This document shows, piece after piece, positions 37,509-45,376 of a stretch of 64,000 nt of DNA. The position numbers and the translations under genes were made by a program. Source of the DNA: Candidatus Stahliibacteriota bacterium. Lineage in GTDB: Bacteria; Hydrothermota; Tepidihabitantia; B3-TA06. The stretch is taken from the NCBI GenBank assembly GCA_004375895.1, contig SOJW01000069.1, positions 1-64,000 on the forward strand. Reading direction: 5' to 3'. Within the stretch, counting starts at the first letter, position 1; every line of letters begins with the position of its first letter. A model generated the notes under the pieces. The model did not search any database and was not told where the DNA came from. It saw only the letters and a program-made list of their open reading frames with translations.

Positions 37509-37537
37509 TTGACAAGGCAATACTGAGTGCGTATAGT
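37509..37537 (+). promoter_or_regulatory. Promoter of the helicase/DndD/radical SAM operon
   Basis: TTGACA (37509-37514), 17 nt, TATAGT (37532-37537). Confidence 0.7.
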
Positions 37538-37586
37538 GTGATTACGGTGTAGAATTGCGAACGGCAGTTCGAAGGAGATGTCGCGA

Positions 37587-39692
37587 ATGAACTTAAAATC
37601 TCTTGACTTAAAAAAGGCTTACTCCTCGGACTTTGACAACTCATTACGTGATTTTTATATACCCGCACTAGAAGCATCGATTGAGTACAACCGGCTTGCA
37701 GGATTTTTCTCATCCACAAGTTTAGCGATCGCTGCAAGAGGAGTTCTAGGTTTAATTAGGAATGGTGGCACGATGAGACTGATAGCTTCTCCCCAATTGA
37801 GCAAAAGGGATCTTGAGATTATCTTGGATTCTGAAGAGAGAAGAGAAGAATACATAAGTAAAAGAATGCTGGAAGATCTGGCGAGATTAGAAGATGAATT
37901 TGTCAAAGATCACGTTTTTGCTCTTGGCTGGATGGTTGCCAACAGAAAGCTTGAGATTCGGATCGCTGTGCCATACGATGAGGAGGGAAAACTTTTAAGC
38001 TATGAAGAGGTTCAACAGCGAGGGGTTTTTCATCAAAAAGTGGGTATCCTGAAAGACTCTGAGGGGAATCTGATAACCTTCAGTGGGTCCGTTAATGAGA
38101 CTGCCAAGGCTTGGCTAGACAACATTGAAGAGTTTAAGGTTTTTCGGGATTGGGAACCTTCAGAGGAAGATTATGTGGGAGCTGATGTTTCAAAGTTCAA
38201 CAAGTTTTGGAATGATCAATCTCCAAGGGTCAGAATCATGGATGTTCCTAAGGCAGTCGAAAGGAAGCTAATAGAAATCGCTCCAGCGAATGTTGACAAA
38301 ATCGACTTAGAGAGATGGTGCAAAACGCAAAAGAGGAAGCCACAGCTTTTTCAACACCAACAAGCTGCTATCGAAGCTTGGTTAAAGAACGGGATGAGGG
38401 GACTTTTCGAAATGGCAACCGGCACGGGGAAAACCTTCGCAGCTTTAGGTTGCTTGGATAAAGCATCTAAAACAACCCAGAAGCTCATAGTGGTTATAGC
38501 TTGCCCCTATCACCATTTAATTGAGCAATGGATAAAGGAAATCGAAAAATTCGGTGTTGAAACTGATAAATTAATCGTTGCGGATGCTACCAATCAATAT
38601 TGGAGGAACGAGTTGGCCGATTCGCTGATGGATATTTCATTGGGACATAAAACAAAAGTTATGGCGATGACGACGCACCGCACATTCTCCTCACCGGCTT
38701 TCAGAAAGATAATCCAAAGTAATAAACAGGATTCCACTGCTCTCTTAATCGCCGACGAGGTTCACGGTATAGGGGCTGAGAAAAGCCAAGAGGGACTCAT
38801 TGATGAATATGATCTAAGATTAGGTTTGAGTGCCACGCCTAGAAGATGGTTCGATAGTCCAGGTACAGAGTTGATATATGATTATTTCGGGGGAGTTGTT
38901 TATGAATTTGGATTGAAGAAAGCCATCAACACTCTAAACCCGGATACAGATCAAGCCTACCTTACTCCTTATCGATATAGATCAAGATTTGTCTCTTTGA
39001 CTGAGGAAGAGTTAGAGGAATACCATGAAAAGACGAGACGAATTGTAATGAATCTCAATAAAACCGAAACTGAAGAACAAGCAAAGGCAATTCTGGATAT
39101 TTTAATGTTTCAAAGAGCAAATATTGTCAAGAATGCTCTGGGAAAGTATCAGGTTCTTGAGGAAATCCTCGATGAGTTAAGGGAATCTATAAGATGGACA
39201 TTAATCTATTGCAGCCCCGAACAGATCGATGAAGTAATGGAGATAGTCAATCGCCGTGGCATTGCCGCACATCGTTTTACAATGGAGGAAGGAACTTCTC
39301 CCGAAAAGAAATATGGATGGATCTCAGAGAGAGAGCATCTTCTGGAGGAATTTGCGGAAGGCAAGTACAAGATTCTGGTTGCTATGAAATGTTTGGATGA
39401 AGGTGTGGATGTTCCACCCGCAAGGATCGCTATCTTGATGGCAAGTAGTGGGAACCCTAGGGAGTACATCCAACGTATCGGAAGAGTCATAAGAAGATAC
39501 CCTGGCAAAAGTGAAGCTCTCATATACGATGTTGTCACTTCTCCTTCTTTAAGTAACCTTCCATCGGAATTAAAGGAGATGGAGAAAAAGATCTTCGAGA
39601 AGGAATTAAAAAGGTATGAGGAGATAGCGAAGATCGCTCTCAACAGAGCTGAGGCATTAACCCTTATATGTGACATAAAGGAAAAACTGTAG
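37587..39692 (+). CDS. PLD-nuclease/superfamily 2 helicase fusion
   Basis: About 701 residues. The ATG at 37587 is chosen because AAGGAG abuts ATG 37578. The N-terminal 200 residues are a PLD-like domain (FHQKVGILKDSEGN, FSGSVNETAKAW, the HxKxGIxxD form). Helicase motifs: Walker A ATGTGKTF (about 278), DEVH (about 390), SATP, and QRIGRVIRR (about 629), giving a complete DEAD/DEAH-type motor. Such fusions occur in several phage-defence systems and would move on and cut DNA. First gene of a five-gene operon, 11 nt before the next. Confidence 0.85.
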   Translation: MNLKSLDLKKAYSSDFDNSLRDFYIPALEASIEYNRLAGFFSSTSLAIAARGVLGLIRNGGTMRLIASPQLSKRDLEIILDSEERREEYISKRMLEDLARLEDEFVKDHVFALGWMVANRKLEIRIAVPYDEEGKLLSYEEVQQRGVFHQKVGILKDSEGNLITFSGSVNETAKAWLDNIEEFKVFRDWEPSEEDYVGADVSKFNKFWNDQSPRVRIMDVPKAVERKLIEIAPANVDKIDLERWCKTQKRKPQLFQHQQAAIEAWLKNGMRGLFEMATGTGKTFAALGCLDKASKTTQKLIVVIACPYHHLIEQWIKEIEKFGVETDKLIVADATNQYWRNELADSLMDISLGHKTKVMAMTTHRTFSSPAFRKIIQSNKQDSTALLIADEVHGIGAEKSQEGLIDEYDLRLGLSATPRRWFDSPGTELIYDYFGGVVYEFGLKKAINTLNPDTDQAYLTPYRYRSRFVSLTEEELEEYHEKTRRIVMNLNKTETEEQAKAILDILMFQRANIVKNALGKYQVLEEILDELRESIRWTLIYCSPEQIDEVMEIVNRRGIAAHRFTMEEGTSPEKKYGWISEREHLLEEFAEGKYKILVAMKCLDEGVDVPPARIAILMASSGNPREYIQRIGRVIRRYPGKSEALIYDVVTSPSLSNLPSELKEMEKKIFEKELKRYEEIAKIALNRAEALTLICDIKEKL

Positions 39693-39703
39693 GGAGATGT
39701 AAA

Positions 39704-39910
39704 ATGAGTAACGGCAAGATTAAAGTGCTCAATCCACGGATTATAGAAATCATAAAACAGAACTGTGGAAAGGATAAAGTAATAAGCAAATTCTTGATAG
39801 ATTTACTCTACGAAGAATTCGAACACTCAGGACAGTGGTGGTGGGCAGAGACTTACAAGGATAGGATAAAAACATATTCGGCAAGATGGAGTAGTCCCAA
39901 TGAGGATTGA
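39704..39910 (+). CDS. Small protein of the operon, 68 aa
   Basis: Starts 11 nt after the helicase and overlaps the DndD-like gene by 11 nt. It reads KVLNPRIIEIIKQNCGKDKV and DLLYEEFEHSGQWWWAETYK. A compact helical protein, possibly an adaptor between helicase and ATPase. No family recognised, but overlap on both sides argues for a real gene. Confidence 0.6.
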   Translation: MSNGKIKVLNPRIIEIIKQNCGKDKVISKFLIDLLYEEFEHSGQWWWAETYKDRIKTYSARWSSPNED

Positions 39911-41873
39911 GAGGATACTACTCAAAAATTATCGTCAATTCAAAGATATGGAGATTCCGTTCACCAAGAAAACCGACAATGATCTACACATAATTATAGG
40001 GAAAAATGGGGCAGGGAAAACAAACATCTTGAATGCCATCAATTGGTGTTTGTATAATAAAGAGCCTCACTTGTCGAAAAGCTCGAAGCGATTGCCCCTT
40101 TTGAACCTTATGACAATACAAGAAACTAGCCAAGTAGGCAGCCACAAAGTTATCGTAGAGGTATGGACAAGAACTGAAAGTGGCAGCCGCATTAAGTTCA
40201 AAAGACTCGCTCGTTATCGGGTACACGAAGAGGGCGGCGAACCTATGCTTCAGGATACGAACTTTGAGGTGGAAATCAGCGGTGGGAAAGAGGGTACAGA
40301 TTTCCAGAAAAATGAAAAAGCCAAGCCTTATGTTGAGCGCTTTGTACCTGAAGGAATCAGAGAGTTCTACTTTTTCGATGGAGACAGACTTGATGTATAC
40401 TTTAAGGAGGTTACTGAACAGAGAATACAGCACGAAATCTTCAAAATATCCCAGATCGACTTGCTAGATATAGTTTCAAGGGGAATAGAAAAAACCCTAA
40501 AGGATATCAGAAATGAAGCCGGGAAAATGAATCCGGTCATAGACAAGAAACGAGAAGAGTTGGAGGAAAAGGAAGACAGGCTTGCGGAAGCGGAGCAAAA
40601 AATAGAAACCTGTGAGAAAGAGATTTCTAGAGCAAATGTTAAAGTCAAAGAATTAGGAGAGAAACTTGAAGAATTACCTGACGTAGAGGTGCTACAAAAC
40701 AGAAGAGAAGAACTTAAAAAACGTAAAGAAAAAAAGAAGAATTTAAGAGCTACGAAGCTACAGGAAAAGAAAGATCTCTTGCTAGAGTATAGCAAGATTA
40801 TAAGGCTGTGGCCAGCAATAAAAACCACTTTAGAAGTTATTGACGAAGAAAGAAAAAAGAAAACAATCCCGCCGCGTATAGCTAAAGAGGTTCTGGAGGA
40901 AATACTCCAGAACAATACTTGCACTATTTGTGGGAACACTTTAGATGCGGCAGCCAAAAATCATGTAAGGGACTTGCTTAAGAAAATTAAAGTCAGATCT
41001 GATGTGGCTTACGAACTTACAAAAATGGAAACCCCTTTACGCGAATCCAAGGACGAATTGAAAGGTTTCGAGGAGAAATTAATTAAGGTGACACATGAAC
41101 TTGTAGGGTACGAAGAAGACCTTGATGCGATAGAGAGAGAAATCAACAAGATAGATAAGCAGATGAGTGGCTTCGACGATGTTTCAAAAATAAAAATAAG
41201 AGGATGGAGCGAAGACCTTAGGAAATTTGAAGCTTTAGAAAACGAAGAACGGGAGAAGCTAGGTAGTTTGAAAGCTGAGAAGAAGAGACTCCTCTCTGAA
41301 GTCAATCAACTAAAAGGAGATCTTGATACAGAACTGCGTAAGGAAACCAAAGCTGTAAAGTTAAAGAAGCAAATAGATTTCTGTGCAAGGGCTTTAGAAA
41401 TAGCGAATAAGACGAAAACCATGGTAATGACAGGAACAAGAGACAGAGTAGAGGAAGCGACAAAGAAGTTGTTCTTTAGACTATTATGGAAAAAAGAGAC
41501 CTACGGGGATGTCAAGATACACGAGAATTATGAGCTAGAGGTAATCCATTCAATGGGCTACTCATGTTTAGGGTCATTGGGTGCAGGAGAAAGACAATTA
41601 CTGGCTATTTCCTTTACCTTAGCATTGCATCAAGTTTCCGGTTTCGATTCGGCAATTCTAATAGATACCCCCGTAGCGAGGCTCTCTGATGAACATCGAG
41701 AGAACTTCGGTAAGATCTTTTCTGAAGTTAGCACTGACAAGCAGACGATATTGCTATTTACCCCTGACGAGTACTCAGAGGACATAAGCAAGCACCTAGA
41801 TGTAAAGGCTAGCACAAGATATCTCCTTAAATTATCTGAAGACGAGAAAGAAACCCAACTGGTGGTGCTGTAA
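39900..41873 (+). CDS. DndD-like SMC-family ATPase
   Basis: 657 residues, the usual DndD length. The N-terminus reads MRIERILLKNYRQFKDMEIP, with P-loop GKNGAGKTNILNAI at about residue 35. Long coiled coils flank a central zinc-hook-like TCTICGN (only the CxxC half, about residue 340). The C-terminal ATPase half has SLGAGERQLLAISFTLAL (signature) and SAILIDTPVARLSDEHR (Walker B/D-loop). DndD in phosphorothioation systems is a DNA-dependent ATPase. No DndC, DndA or DndB is seen here, so a different chemistry is possible. Confidence 0.75.
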   Translation: MRIERILLKNYRQFKDMEIPFTKKTDNDLHIIIGKNGAGKTNILNAINWCLYNKEPHLSKSSKRLPLLNLMTIQETSQVGSHKVIVEVWTRTESGSRIKFKRLARYRVHEEGGEPMLQDTNFEVEISGGKEGTDFQKNEKAKPYVERFVPEGIREFYFFDGDRLDVYFKEVTEQRIQHEIFKISQIDLLDIVSRGIEKTLKDIRNEAGKMNPVIDKKREELEEKEDRLAEAEQKIETCEKEISRANVKVKELGEKLEELPDVEVLQNRREELKKRKEKKKNLRATKLQEKKDLLLEYSKIIRLWPAIKTTLEVIDEERKKKTIPPRIAKEVLEEILQNNTCTICGNTLDAAAKNHVRDLLKKIKVRSDVAYELTKMETPLRESKDELKGFEEKLIKVTHELVGYEEDLDAIEREINKIDKQMSGFDDVSKIKIRGWSEDLRKFEALENEEREKLGSLKAEKKRLLSEVNQLKGDLDTELRKETKAVKLKKQIDFCARALEIANKTKTMVMTGTRDRVEEATKKLFFRLLWKKETYGDVKIHENYELEVIHSMGYSCLGSLGAGERQLLAISFTLALHQVSGFDSAILIDTPVARLSDEHRENFGKIFSEVSTDKQTILLFTPDEYSEDISKHLDVKASTRYLLKLSEDEKETQLVVL

Positions 41874-42313
41874 TGGCAAAAGGTCCTGATAGGCTCTATT
41901 ACGTTATAGCTGAGGATGACAAAGCTCTGTACGAGAGATTAAATGAAGAGTTTCAAAAAAGAATGAGCAATAAGAATCAGTTTCTCTTAGCTATGGCTGT
42001 GGGATTCAAAGAAGGGAATTTTCGTTCTTTTGGGAAAAAGGTGAGTTTTGTTCGAACTGAGTATCTAAATGATGAAGACAAAGCTTTAATCAATTCCGTT
42101 GCGATAAAAGAAACGGGAGGTGTAGAGGTGCTCTCGAAAACGGAAGAAGTGTTCAGAATAGCTGAAGGTTATGCTCACGGAGGAATCAGATTACTGAATA
42201 CTCAGATCACTTCCAAACAGTTTGGTTCTTTCTTTAAGCAATTTGAGAAGGAGGTGGTTGAAATCTATAGGGGATTGGATTTAGATGATGAAAAAGAGAA
42301 TCCTTCTAGTTGA
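41873..42313 (+). CDS. Small protein in the DndE position, 146 aa
   Basis: Its ATG overlaps the DndD-like stop (TAATG). The sequence contains YERLNEEFQKRMSNKNQFLL and AMAVGFKEGNFRSFGKKVSF, a helix-turn arrangement reminiscent of DndE/ribbon-helix proteins, then VFRIAEGYAHGGIRLL. In dnd operons the gene after dndD is dndE, which binds nicked DNA; the identity here is inferred from position only. It overlaps the radical SAM gene by 29 nt. Confidence 0.55.
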   Translation: MAKGPDRLYYVIAEDDKALYERLNEEFQKRMSNKNQFLLAMAVGFKEGNFRSFGKKVSFVRTEYLNDEDKALINSVAIKETGGVEVLSKTEEVFRIAEGYAHGGIRLLNTQITSKQFGSFFKQFEKEVVEIYRGLDLDDEKENPSS

Positions 42314-43541
42314 ACCTGATTTTCCGATCCCCGCTAAAAGCAAGAACCACAAGAACTTTCTCCCCATAGGGCTGTTGAAGATAGCGTCGTATTTGAGAGA
42401 CAATAGGATCCAAGTACAACTTGTGAGGGGTGTACCTAAAGATTTGCAGAAGGCGTCTGAAATAAGAGAGTTTAAACCTAAAGAAATTTGGGTAACTTCG
42501 TTATTTACATATTGGGCAAGCTTCGTAAAGGAGTCTGTTCACTACTATAAAAAAATGTTCCCGCGAGCCAAGATTGTTGTTGGCGGAATCTATGCTTCTT
42601 TGTTTTCAAGGGATGAGGTAAAAGAGTATACTGGATGTAACGAGGTGCACCAAGGAATAATCCCGGGGGCAGAAAAATACCCTCCGGCGTATGATCTTTT
42701 AGAAAACGCAAATCCTCATCCAATTGATTACCAAATAATCCATGCCTCAAGGGGCTGCGAGAGGCATTGTACCTTCTGTGGGACATGGAAGATAGAACCG
42801 GAATTCATTCCTAAGGAGAGCATAAAGGACGAAATACACTTGGTGAAGCTGGTTTTTTACGACAACAACTTCCTGATGAATCCGTACATTGAGAACATAT
42901 TGGGAGAGCTTATGGATCTGAAACAAAAAAAAGAAATACTGTGGTGTGAGAGCCAATCTGGATTCGATGGAAGGATACTCCTTGAAAACCCTCACTTGGC
43001 AACGATGCTTAAGAAAGCAGGTTTTAGGTATCCTCGTATCGCGTGGGACGGAAGATACGACGAACACCCTCAAATAAAAAGTCAACTAGATGCGCTAAGA
43101 GAGGCGGGTTATCGTTCTAAGGACATCTATGTATTTATGCTTTATAATTGGCATGCACCCTTTGAGGAAATGGAAAAGAAACGATTGAAATGCTGGGATT
43201 GGAAAGTGCAAATCGCGGATTGTAGGTTCAGACCTCTATCCCAATTATATGATAACTATAATCCGCGGGCAAAAGAAGGACAGCCGTCTAGCGATTATTA
43301 TATTCACGAGGGATGGACTGATGCGTTTGTAAGACAATTTCGAAGGAATGTGCGGGAACAAAACATTTGCGTTAGGCAAGAATTAGACTTTTATTCTTCT
43401 AGTTGTGAGCATAAAAAGTTGGATAGGGGAAGTGCAAGAGTAGTAAAAACTTTGAAAGGCAGACGGAGTAAAGAACGATTCCTGAAGGCTAGAGGTATAA
43501 GAGACTACTGGTTCCCAGGTGAAGTCAGATACCCCTTATGA
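42285..43541 (+). CDS. Radical SAM enzyme with N-terminal B12-type Rossmann domain
   Basis: 418 residues. The N-terminal 130 residues look like the cobalamin-binding-type domain of B12 radical SAM proteins (RILLVEPDFPIP, FLPIGLLKIASYLRDN, KIVVGGIYASLFSRDE), without the base-off DxHxxG motif. The [4Fe-4S] cysteines are 158, 162 and 165 (RGCERHCTFCGTW). The second half is a TIM-barrel-like radical domain (LVFYDNNFLMNP, RIAWDGRYDEHPQI). It is the last gene of the defence-like operon, overlapping upstream by 29 nt, so it probably acts with the helicase and ATPase, perhaps as a DNA-modifying enzyme. Confidence 0.75.
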   Translation: MMKKRILLVEPDFPIPAKSKNHKNFLPIGLLKIASYLRDNRIQVQLVRGVPKDLQKASEIREFKPKEIWVTSLFTYWASFVKESVHYYKKMFPRAKIVVGGIYASLFSRDEVKEYTGCNEVHQGIIPGAEKYPPAYDLLENANPHPIDYQIIHASRGCERHCTFCGTWKIEPEFIPKESIKDEIHLVKLVFYDNNFLMNPYIENILGELMDLKQKKEILWCESQSGFDGRILLENPHLATMLKKAGFRYPRIAWDGRYDEHPQIKSQLDALREAGYRSKDIYVFMLYNWHAPFEEMEKKRLKCWDWKVQIADCRFRPLSQLYDNYNPRAKEGQPSSDYYIHEGWTDAFVRQFRRNVREQNICVRQELDFYSSSCEHKKLDRGSARVVKTLKGRRSKERFLKARGIRDYWFPGEVRYPL

Positions 43542-43632: not shown

Positions 43633-43774
43633 CCCTGTGCTAACAAGTGTGCTAGTTTTAGCACACTTTTGGAGACTATGAAGACTCTGAAGAACATGGA
43701 GACAGTTCTTTAAGTCCCCTAATCCCGTCAGTTCTGGCTTATGTTGAGCTTTCTCAATTGCTTATCAGGATAGG
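43633..43774. repeat. Scar segment shared with 52428-52545
   Basis: GAAGACTCTGAAGA (43679 on) and GAGACAG, then CTCAATTGCTTATCAGG leading into the tRNA-Cys fragment. The same order occurs at 52428-52545. Otherwise empty of genes. Confidence 0.5.
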
Positions 43775-43821
43775 GAATAGCGGTTTTGCAGACCGCCGCC
43801 TTACCACTTGGCTATGCCGCC
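43775..43821 (-). pseudogene. Truncated tRNA-Cys(GCA), 5' two thirds only
   Basis: On the minus strand: acceptor GGCGGCA, D-arm GCC-AAGTGGTAA-GGC, anticodon arm GCGGT-CTGCAAA-ACCGC with anticodon GCA, then TATTC. The T-arm and 3' acceptor strand are replaced by unrelated sequence with no TGCCGCC partner. The gene was cut where many integrases recombine (between anticodon and T-arm). Confidence 0.7.
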
Positions 43822-43999: not shown

Positions 44000-45376
44000 C
44001 TAGGCCTTGAACTTGTCCGAAAGGGGATACACCCTTTGTTTGGCGTGATCCCTCTGGAACAGATTCAGCTGGAAGAAGTAGGCCGACATGAATAAGGTAC
44101 GGGCTATCTGGGTGGCGAAGCCTTCCTCCCCGGAGTAGCTGGTGATGAACCGCCACCAGCGCTTCAGGATGTTTTTCCAGGAGTAGTACACCCGGTTCAC
44201 CCGTTCAAAGGCTTTAAACACGTCGTCCGACCCCACCCCTTTGGGCATGTGCACCAGATGGTCGCCTTCGTAATGGGAAAGATCCTTGTCGAAGATGCGC
44301 CCCTCCGCATTCACCTTGCGGTGGAAGGGTGTACCTTTTATGGGTATGGAGATGGAGAGCAGTATGGCGCTGGGATCGATCTCCTCCAGATGCTCTGGCA
44401 GGCTCTCGTAGTACTCCGGGGTATCCTCGTCAAGCCCCAGCATCACCCCGGTGAAGGTCATGATCCTGCGTCTCTTGAGCTTTTCGAACAGCTCCTTGTA
44501 CTCCTCCACCCGGTTCTGTTTCTTGTGAACGGACAGGAGGCTGGGCTCGTTAAGGGACTCCAGGCCCAAAAAAGCTAGCCCGGCACGCGCCTTGACCAAA
44601 AGGTTCACAAACTCGTCGTCGTGCAGACAGTCGAAGCTGAACTGGAACCCCACCCCCCACATCCTGAGTTTGGCGATCTCCCTCACAACTTCCTTGGCGT
44701 ATTCTATATCACCGCCGAAGTTGTTGTCGTGAAGCATCGCCACCTTGCGTTTGAGGAAGGGGAGCTTGGATGTAGCCGTAAGGTCGCGGATCACGTCCCT
44801 CACCGGCCGCTTGCGGAACGGGGCGTTCTGGATGGTGAGCTGGCAGAAGCTGCACTTGTAGGGACACCCCCGGGTGGCCTCGGTCACCACGGGCACGGAA
44901 AAGTCCGGCTCAATAAGGTCGTATCGCGGTGGCGGGATATTATCAAGGGGTGCCCCGAAGGGAGCTTCGTAAACCTTCTTCGACTTCCCTGCGACCAGAT
45001 CCCTGACCACCTGGGGCCAGATACGTTCGGCCTCGCCCACCACTGTTACGTTCATGTAGGGGATTACTTCCCGGGGGAAGGTGGAAGGGTATCTGCCACC
45101 CGCCACCACGATCTTGCCCTTCTCTCTGAACCTTTTGGCAACCTCGATGGCATGCGGGGCGCAGAAATCCATGAAGCTTAAGGCGATGATGTCCGCGTCG
45201 GTATCGTAATCAATAGGCCTTACCATCTCGTGACGCAAACTCACCTCCACCGCAGGAGGGGTGAGGCCTGCCACCAACGCACCTGACAACGGCGGTGCCG
45301 GGGATCGGGCATAGTAAGCCTGCTTTTCGCCCAGATTCTGGAAAAGCACAATTATTTCAACTTTGGGTTTAGCCAT
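44000..45376 (-). CDS. B12-type radical SAM protein of the lipid operon
   Basis: 458 residues. N-terminal domain LSGALVAGLTPPAVEVSLRH, DIIALSFMDFCAPHAIEVAK and KIVVAGGRYPSTFPREV of the cobalamin-binding-type fold. The iron-sulfur cysteines are in TRGCPYKCSFCQLTIQNAPF (CxxxCxxC). Then AMLHDNNFGGDIEYAKEVV, LAFLGLESLNEPSLLSVHKK and GVMLGLDEDTPEYYE, as in the HpnJ/BchE class that acts on lipids and tetrapyrroles. Last gene of the minus-strand operon, 9 nt after the SDR gene. A lipid-modifying role is inferred from that context. Confidence 0.75.
   Translation of the reverse strand: MAKPKVEIIVLFQNLGEKQAYYARSPAPPLSGALVAGLTPPAVEVSLRHEMVRPIDYDTDADIIALSFMDFCAPHAIEVAKRFREKGKIVVAGGRYPSTFPREVIPYMNVTVVGEAERIWPQVVRDLVAGKSKKVYEAPFGAPLDNIPPPRYDLIEPDFSVPVVTEATRGCPYKCSFCQLTIQNAPFRKRPVRDVIRDLTATSKLPFLKRKVAMLHDNNFGGDIEYAKEVVREIAKLRMWGVGFQFSFDCLHDDEFVNLLVKARAGLAFLGLESLNEPSLLSVHKKQNRVEEYKELFEKLKRRRIMTFTGVMLGLDEDTPEYYESLPEHLEEIDPSAILLSISIPIKGTPFHRKVNAEGRIFDKDLSHYEGDHLVHMPKGVGSDDVFKAFERVNRVYYSWKNILKRWWRFITSYSGEEGFATQIARTLFMSAYFFQLNLFQRDHAKQRVYPLSDKFKA

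Follow-up and report, generated by a model that had tools for sequence, protein, structure and literature searches.

A PbeABCD module with a predicted cobalamin-dependent radical-SAM partner in a Candidatus Stahliibacteriota genome

How would a PbeABCD module discriminate self from non-self when none of its usual DNA modification partners is encoded beside it? The question is raised by an operon of five genes in a 64,000-nucleotide stretch of DNA, hereafter the window (contig SOJW01000069.1, assembly GCA_004375895.1, Candidatus Stahliibacteriota bacterium). Neither Dnd or Ssp genes nor a DNA methyltransferase gene was found inside or beside the operon, whose fifth gene encodes a predicted B12-binding radical S-adenosylmethionine (rSAM) enzyme. 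A modification partner is not obligatory, as many solitary cases of PbeABCD have been reported (PMC6459918); the mark used by these 'solitary' modules was left open by Xiong et al., who suggested other modifications (PMC6459918).

We propose, on the strength of sequence comparisons and with a probability of roughly 0.55, that the locus is a PbeABCD from a separate clade, in which a dedicated cobalamin-dependent rSAM enzyme replaces DndABCDE, Ssp or a DNA methyltransferase and puts a carbon-centred mark on host DNA. Comparative genomics establishes a conserved five-gene unit, an rSAM gene in all clade loci found, and usual modification genes that are not adjacent. The known part would be PbeABCD, and the new part the rSAM partner in this variant of it.

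The PbeABCD module and its fifth gene

Judged by their sequences, genes one to four make up an established phage-defence module, PbeABCD, described by Xiong et al. 2019 (PMC6459918) and equated with the CxC-ABC ATPase/DndE system in PMC10853773. The initial annotation, made from the sequence alone, had reported no recognised match; this did not hold, as PADLOC identifies PbeA and PbeC and the module is PbeABCD. PbeA was called at 1.5e-235, and the same product matches TIGR04095 'DNA phosphorothioation system restriction enzyme' at 1.6e-126. The earlier suggestion that this PLD-SF2 helicase fusion is the likely restricting arm stands. Its motifs include HxK at 38031-38039, a DEVH box and QRIGRVIR; PLDc_2 alone falls under the Pfam cut-off. 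PbeB occupies the position of the small protein between A and C.

The third and fourth genes had been described as DndD-like and as lying in the dndE position, and in both cases the kinship stood and the label changed. The ATPase is related to DndD, but its proper family is PbeC (PADLOC 3.5e-180 versus 1.8e-48 for DndD), the top PbeC model being over 400 bits ahead of the top DndD one; it carries a Walker A motif, GKNGAGKT, and a CTIC hook at 40920-40931 that is conserved as CxxC. PbeD has a weak match to TIGR04062 dnd_assoc_4 (2.5e-6, below the family cut-off), and the best PDB matches of its predicted structure are DndE (7x4e, 4lrv), with a probability of 0.96 but an E value of 0.18. It is thus a DndE relative by fold that is properly labelled PbeD. 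The operon shares with PbeABCD the A-B-C-D order, the HKD/PLD-SF2 helicase, a small protein of 60-70 amino acids (aa), the CxxC-hook ABC ATPase and the DndE-like protein, and differs in having a B12-rSAM gene after pbeD and in the absence of neighbouring dndCDEA, ssp and methyltransferase genes. The Dnd system (DndABCDE/DndFGH) is more remote: PbeC and PbeD are distant kin of DndD and DndE, whereas the genome has no DndC match.

The fifth product was correctly recognised at the outset as a B12-type radical-SAM enzyme. A B12-binding domain (PF02310, 9e-9, above the cut-off) is followed by PF04055 (8e-6, slightly under it), and the protein matches phrog_9298 (3.9e-23), a phage family that shares its catalytic motif residues and whose PHROGs label, 'radical SAM domain protein', is a domain name only. 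The CxxxCxxC motif lies at 42756-42779, and C158, C162 and C165 are invariant in 17 sequences. Across these 17 members, which extend down to 22% identity, 20 of the 23 tracked motif positions are identical, among them CxxxCxxC, GG, GxDxR, AxD and YN; the remaining three vary only in a viral contig, L057. A sequence search against the PDB returned no match. An AlphaFold2 model (pLDDT 80.6) has as its nearest PDB folds the cobalamin rSAM enzymes CysS, TokK and OxsB, C-methylases and their relatives, with which it shares N-terminal B12-binding and rSAM domains at 12-15% identity; these enzymes act on antibiotic precursors. The fifth gene product is therefore a predicted cobalamin-dependent rSAM enzyme, for which cobalamin binding and SAM cleavage are likewise predicted.

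Recurrence of the five-gene unit and comparison with control loci

Recurrent linkage in unrelated genomes, the check proposed in the initial annotation, was found: pbeABCD-rSAM occurs in the same order in four more genomes, one of them finished, which add at least two phyla. Three of the loci were recovered by a search with the rSAM protein (L001; L002, from Chloroflexota; and L004, from a Clostridia metagenome-assembled genome, where pbeA is cut by the contig end). The fourth (L046) was added later, from G824, a finished genome belonging to the same phylum as the Clostridia assembly. Identities to the window in L001, L002 and L004 are 57-66% for the rSAM enzyme, the highest of the five proteins, 54-61% for PbeA, 37-52% for PbeD, 37-46% for PbeC and 30-49% for PbeB. 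Because an identical gene set and order recur in four other genomes, the arrangement is not a matter of chance, and the five genes very probably form a functional unit.

A sixth locus, on the viral contig L057, was found independently with a PbeA query. Its rSAM gene, encoding 632 aa, ends directly upstream of pbeA, and the product is deeply divergent, matching phrog_9298 at 1e-56 and sharing the catalytic motif residues. The contig is prophage-like and carries its PbeABCD and rSAM genes near phage replication genes, as a phage-borne defence.

The six rSAM loci form one clade in both the PbeA tree and the PbeC tree (100/100 support), and an rSAM of the phrog_9298 family is present in each of them. 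Matches to the PbeC profile above 800 bits were confined to G000 (the genome of the window), G148 and G824, each of which also has the rSAM gene, among 147 genomes of the window's own phylum, 400 of Chloroflexota and 26 of the class of G824. The enzyme itself is rare, occurring in 1 of the 400 Chloroflexota genomes and in 3 of the 147 own-phylum genomes, one of these three being distant.

As a control set we took 16 other PbeA/PbeC loci (L031-L037, L047-L054 and L058), some without full flanks. The rSAM family profile found no member in any of the 16. Instead, most had among their neighbours DndBCDE or DndCDEA (L031, L035, L054), Ssp-type genes (L052), DNA methyltransferases (L032, L034, L047, L050) or a second DndD-like ATPase (L036, L037, L048, L049), with L033 and L053 showing none of these four kinds; at the rSAM loci, likewise, none of the four was found. 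The initial annotation had taken absence of the rSAM gene from most homologous loci as the finding that would speak against its proposal: that is what is seen across PbeABCD in general (rSAM gene in 0 of 16 other loci), and not in the enzyme's own clade (6 of 6).

One control locus merits a separate description. On a Rhizobium indigoferae plasmid (L052, 7342-18401), PbeB-, PbeC-, PbeD- and PbeA-like genes, with A last, stand beside an Ssp-like set comprising a PAPS-reductase family protein, an ATP-binding protein, DUF4007 and a cysteine desulfurase.

Could an ordinary dnd system be completed elsewhere in the genome? For DndC, the family that this search covered, it could not: the earlier statement that DndC is missing was upheld by the lack of any TIGR03183 match in the draft genome of the window (G000, 89.9% complete), and the same was true across G147-G150, G092 and G824, all drafts except G824. 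C5 methyltransferase (PF00145) was likewise without a match in the drafts G000, G147, G148, G149 and G150, G824 lying outside that search. The idea that 5-methylcytosine is an obligatory rSAM substrate, which came from the C5 methyltransferase neighbours of phage relatives, was therefore discarded, and the PbeABCD form can probably do without 5-methylcytosine.

Dnd genes and cytosine methylases are the PbeABCD partners named in the text of PMC6459918 and PMC10853773; neither text, supplementary tables apart, mentions a B12-rSAM with PbeABCD. We found no report of the pairing in the literature covered, which did not extend to subscription papers, preprints and supplementary tables.

Candidate substrates of the radical-SAM enzyme

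On balance, genomic context and fold favour an enzyme that puts a carbon-centred mark on host DNA. Using B12, SAM and 4Fe-4S chemistry like that of CysS and TokK, it would transfer a carbon-centred group, most likely a methyl, onto a base of host DNA. The PbeC-PbeD pair would scan DNA sites, and the PbeA nuclease-helicase would act on unmarked DNA, either in restriction or as a suicide effector, so that invader DNA may be cut, replication stopped or the cell killed. PbeABCD would thus use the mark made by the rSAM enzyme to discriminate self from non-self. That the enzyme installs a DNA mark had been suggested in the initial annotation, and the circumstantial support for it now appears much better.

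Several points weigh against this proposal. DNA as the substrate is suggested by guilt by association, and the enzymes of matched fold act on small molecules; peptides and lipids are also substrates of B12-rSAM enzymes. The Foldseek TM-scores behind the fold match are moderate (0.47-0.58), from a model built from 11 sequences. The six-of-six count is partly biased, as the rSAM query itself brought in five of those clade loci. Finally, PbeABCD has been described as stopping replication, with viral DNA reportedly uncut (PMC6459918).

The other contexts of the family bear on what the substrate might be. Near relatives, which share 53-65% identity with the PbeABCD-linked enzymes, occur in three settings. 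In G092 (L039, 249-7911) a row of genes encodes an N4/N6 methyltransferase fragment, a DpnII-like restriction endonuclease, a DGQHR/DpdB-like protein, the rSAM enzyme and a ParB-domain protein. A run in Ca. Desulfaltia (L003, 11-7499) encodes NurA, HerA, a 62-aa protein, an SMC-like ATPase, a 300-aa protein and the rSAM enzyme, and is possibly a second rSAM-linked defence cassette. In the viral contig L008 the gene directly precedes that of a terminase-like protein, recognised by eye and without a Pfam match. Farther relatives lie, in gut phage contigs, beside a C5 methyltransferase and a second rSAM gene or with ferredoxin and C5 methyltransferase genes on either side; beside DGQHR proteins on plasmids of Rhizobium and Novosphingobium; and with NurA-HerA in Marinitoga virus 1. 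In the Oscillospiraceae phage NatCom_21982 (L093, 4000-8908) overlapping genes encode a SAM-synthetase N-terminal-domain protein, a ParB-N4/N6 methyltransferase, the rSAM enzyme and a C5 methyltransferase. Relatives thus adjoin DpdB/DndB-like DGQHR proteins (G092 and the plasmids), as in Dpd (7-deazaguanine in DNA) and DGQHR systems, whereas the operon in the window encodes none. Enzymes from these contexts do not fall into separate groups in the rSAM tree, and the gene therefore seems to pass from one context to another; nor does the tree settle whether the PbeABCD-linked enzymes are monophyletic.

When the single phage proteins of L008 and L009 were used to scan viral sequences, no contigs were recovered beyond their own and nearly identical ones, and a scan with the Marinitoga virus protein gave no match. 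The phage NatCom_21982 also has a PAPS-reductase-annotated gene 3' of its terminase, and its locus resembles an elaborate DNA-modification pathway. TcmP-like 'three-Cys-motif partner' genes stand beside other rSAM genes in L046 (1546-3499) and L040 (7426-10795); in the latter, a distant member of the operon's rSAM family and an HSP90-like ATPase accompany the TcmP-like gene.

Of the other readings, the one that survives best, although we consider it unlikely, is that DNA is not the substrate and that the product is a small antiviral compound, a modified nucleotide or a signal by which PbeA is activated. Viperins are defence rSAM enzymes that yield nucleotide analogues, and the nearest folds, CysS and TokK, belong to enzymes of small molecules. 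An antiviral toxin would, however, be an odd thing to find in phages, where relatives 60% identical adjoin terminase-like, methyltransferase, SAM-synthetase-domain and ParB genes, and the DpdB/DndB-type neighbours of bacterial relatives also speak against it.

Slightly less likely again is modification of a protein or RNA, with PbeB or PbeD as a regulatory switch or tRNA as the target. Peptides are frequent substrates of B12-rSAM enzymes, the operon encodes the small, fast-evolving PbeB, and a tRNA methylthiotransferase was among the viral structure matches. Yet PbeB is present in PbeABCD loci without the rSAM gene, and the rSAM gene without PbeB in phages and the DGQHR locus.

We regard as improbable an eraser that removes or repairs a DNA adduct, for example after damage by PbeA or against phage base modification. 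Two distant relatives do adjoin spore-photoproduct-lyase-like or PA0069-like rSAM genes, but the clade has no other modification gene to make a mark, and the phage operons, with their methyltransferases and SAM-synthetase-domain protein, look mark-making. Very improbable, and rejected through the conserved order and L057, is a PbeABCD restriction module that lost its modification partner and has an unrelated passenger downstream: PbeAC pairs often stand alone (320 of 553; PMC6459918), but here overlapping or closely spaced genes keep their order in five genomes, the rSAM enzyme is the best conserved of the five proteins, and the sister locus L057 holds another rSAM subfamily, one that is deeply divergent.

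The clade supplies a concrete candidate for what 'solitary' PbeABCD modules use as their mark. If the rSAM enzyme does mark DNA, it would represent an unrecognised class of DNA modification enzyme, swappable among restriction-like modules and used by phages, and phrog_9298, which has no assigned function, would gain a role. More tentatively, with the odds slightly against so broad a claim, the family may provide a further chemistry of epigenetic self-marking, alongside methyltransferases, sulfur insertion and base exchange, in which a radical enzyme dependent on B12 forms a carbon-carbon bond at a base of DNA. It would be common to phages, which would protect their own DNA, and to several unrelated bacterial modules (PbeABCD, DGQHR-ParB and NurA-HerA).

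Locus layout and genomic setting

Open reading frames were confirmed for all five genes, which are co-directional on the + strand from 37587 to 43541. The initial description of genes with 11-nt gaps or overlaps behind one promoter was upheld, with intergenic distances, in order, of +11, -11, -1 and -29 nt and a sigma-70-like site upstream. An alternative start of pbeA lies at 37578; an AAGGAG ribosome-binding site favours 37587.

Features of the operon and its surroundings (window coordinates)
Feature	Position	Strand	Remark
Sigma-70-like promoter, TTGACA-17-TATAGT	37509..37537	+	11/12 consensus match only; ~50 nt 5' of pbeA
pbeA, PLD/HKD nuclease domain-SF2 (type I/III restriction-like) helicase fusion, 701 aa	37587..39692	+	
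pbeB, small fast-evolving protein, 68 aa	39704..39910	+	
pbeC, coiled-coil ABC ATPase of CxC/DndD group, 657 aa	39900..41873	+	
pbeD, DndE-like protein, 146 aa	41873..42313	+	
B12-binding rSAM enzyme, phrog_9298 family, 418 aa	42285..43541	+	
Truncated tRNA-Cys (GCA) remnant, T arm missing	43772..43821	-	24.8 bits against RF00005, under its gathering score of 29 bits

The G+C content of the operon stretch is 0.40-0.42, against 0.50-0.56 in its neighbourhood. Given this low G+C and the truncated tRNA-Cys near the right edge, the stretch looks like an island, and the tRNA remnant is likely a scar of integration or deletion. A second radical-SAM gene adjoins the operon at 44000-45376 on the - strand; it scores 29.7 bits against the family profile of the operon's rSAM enzyme, as remote kin, and opens a run of minus-strand genes that resembles core genome.

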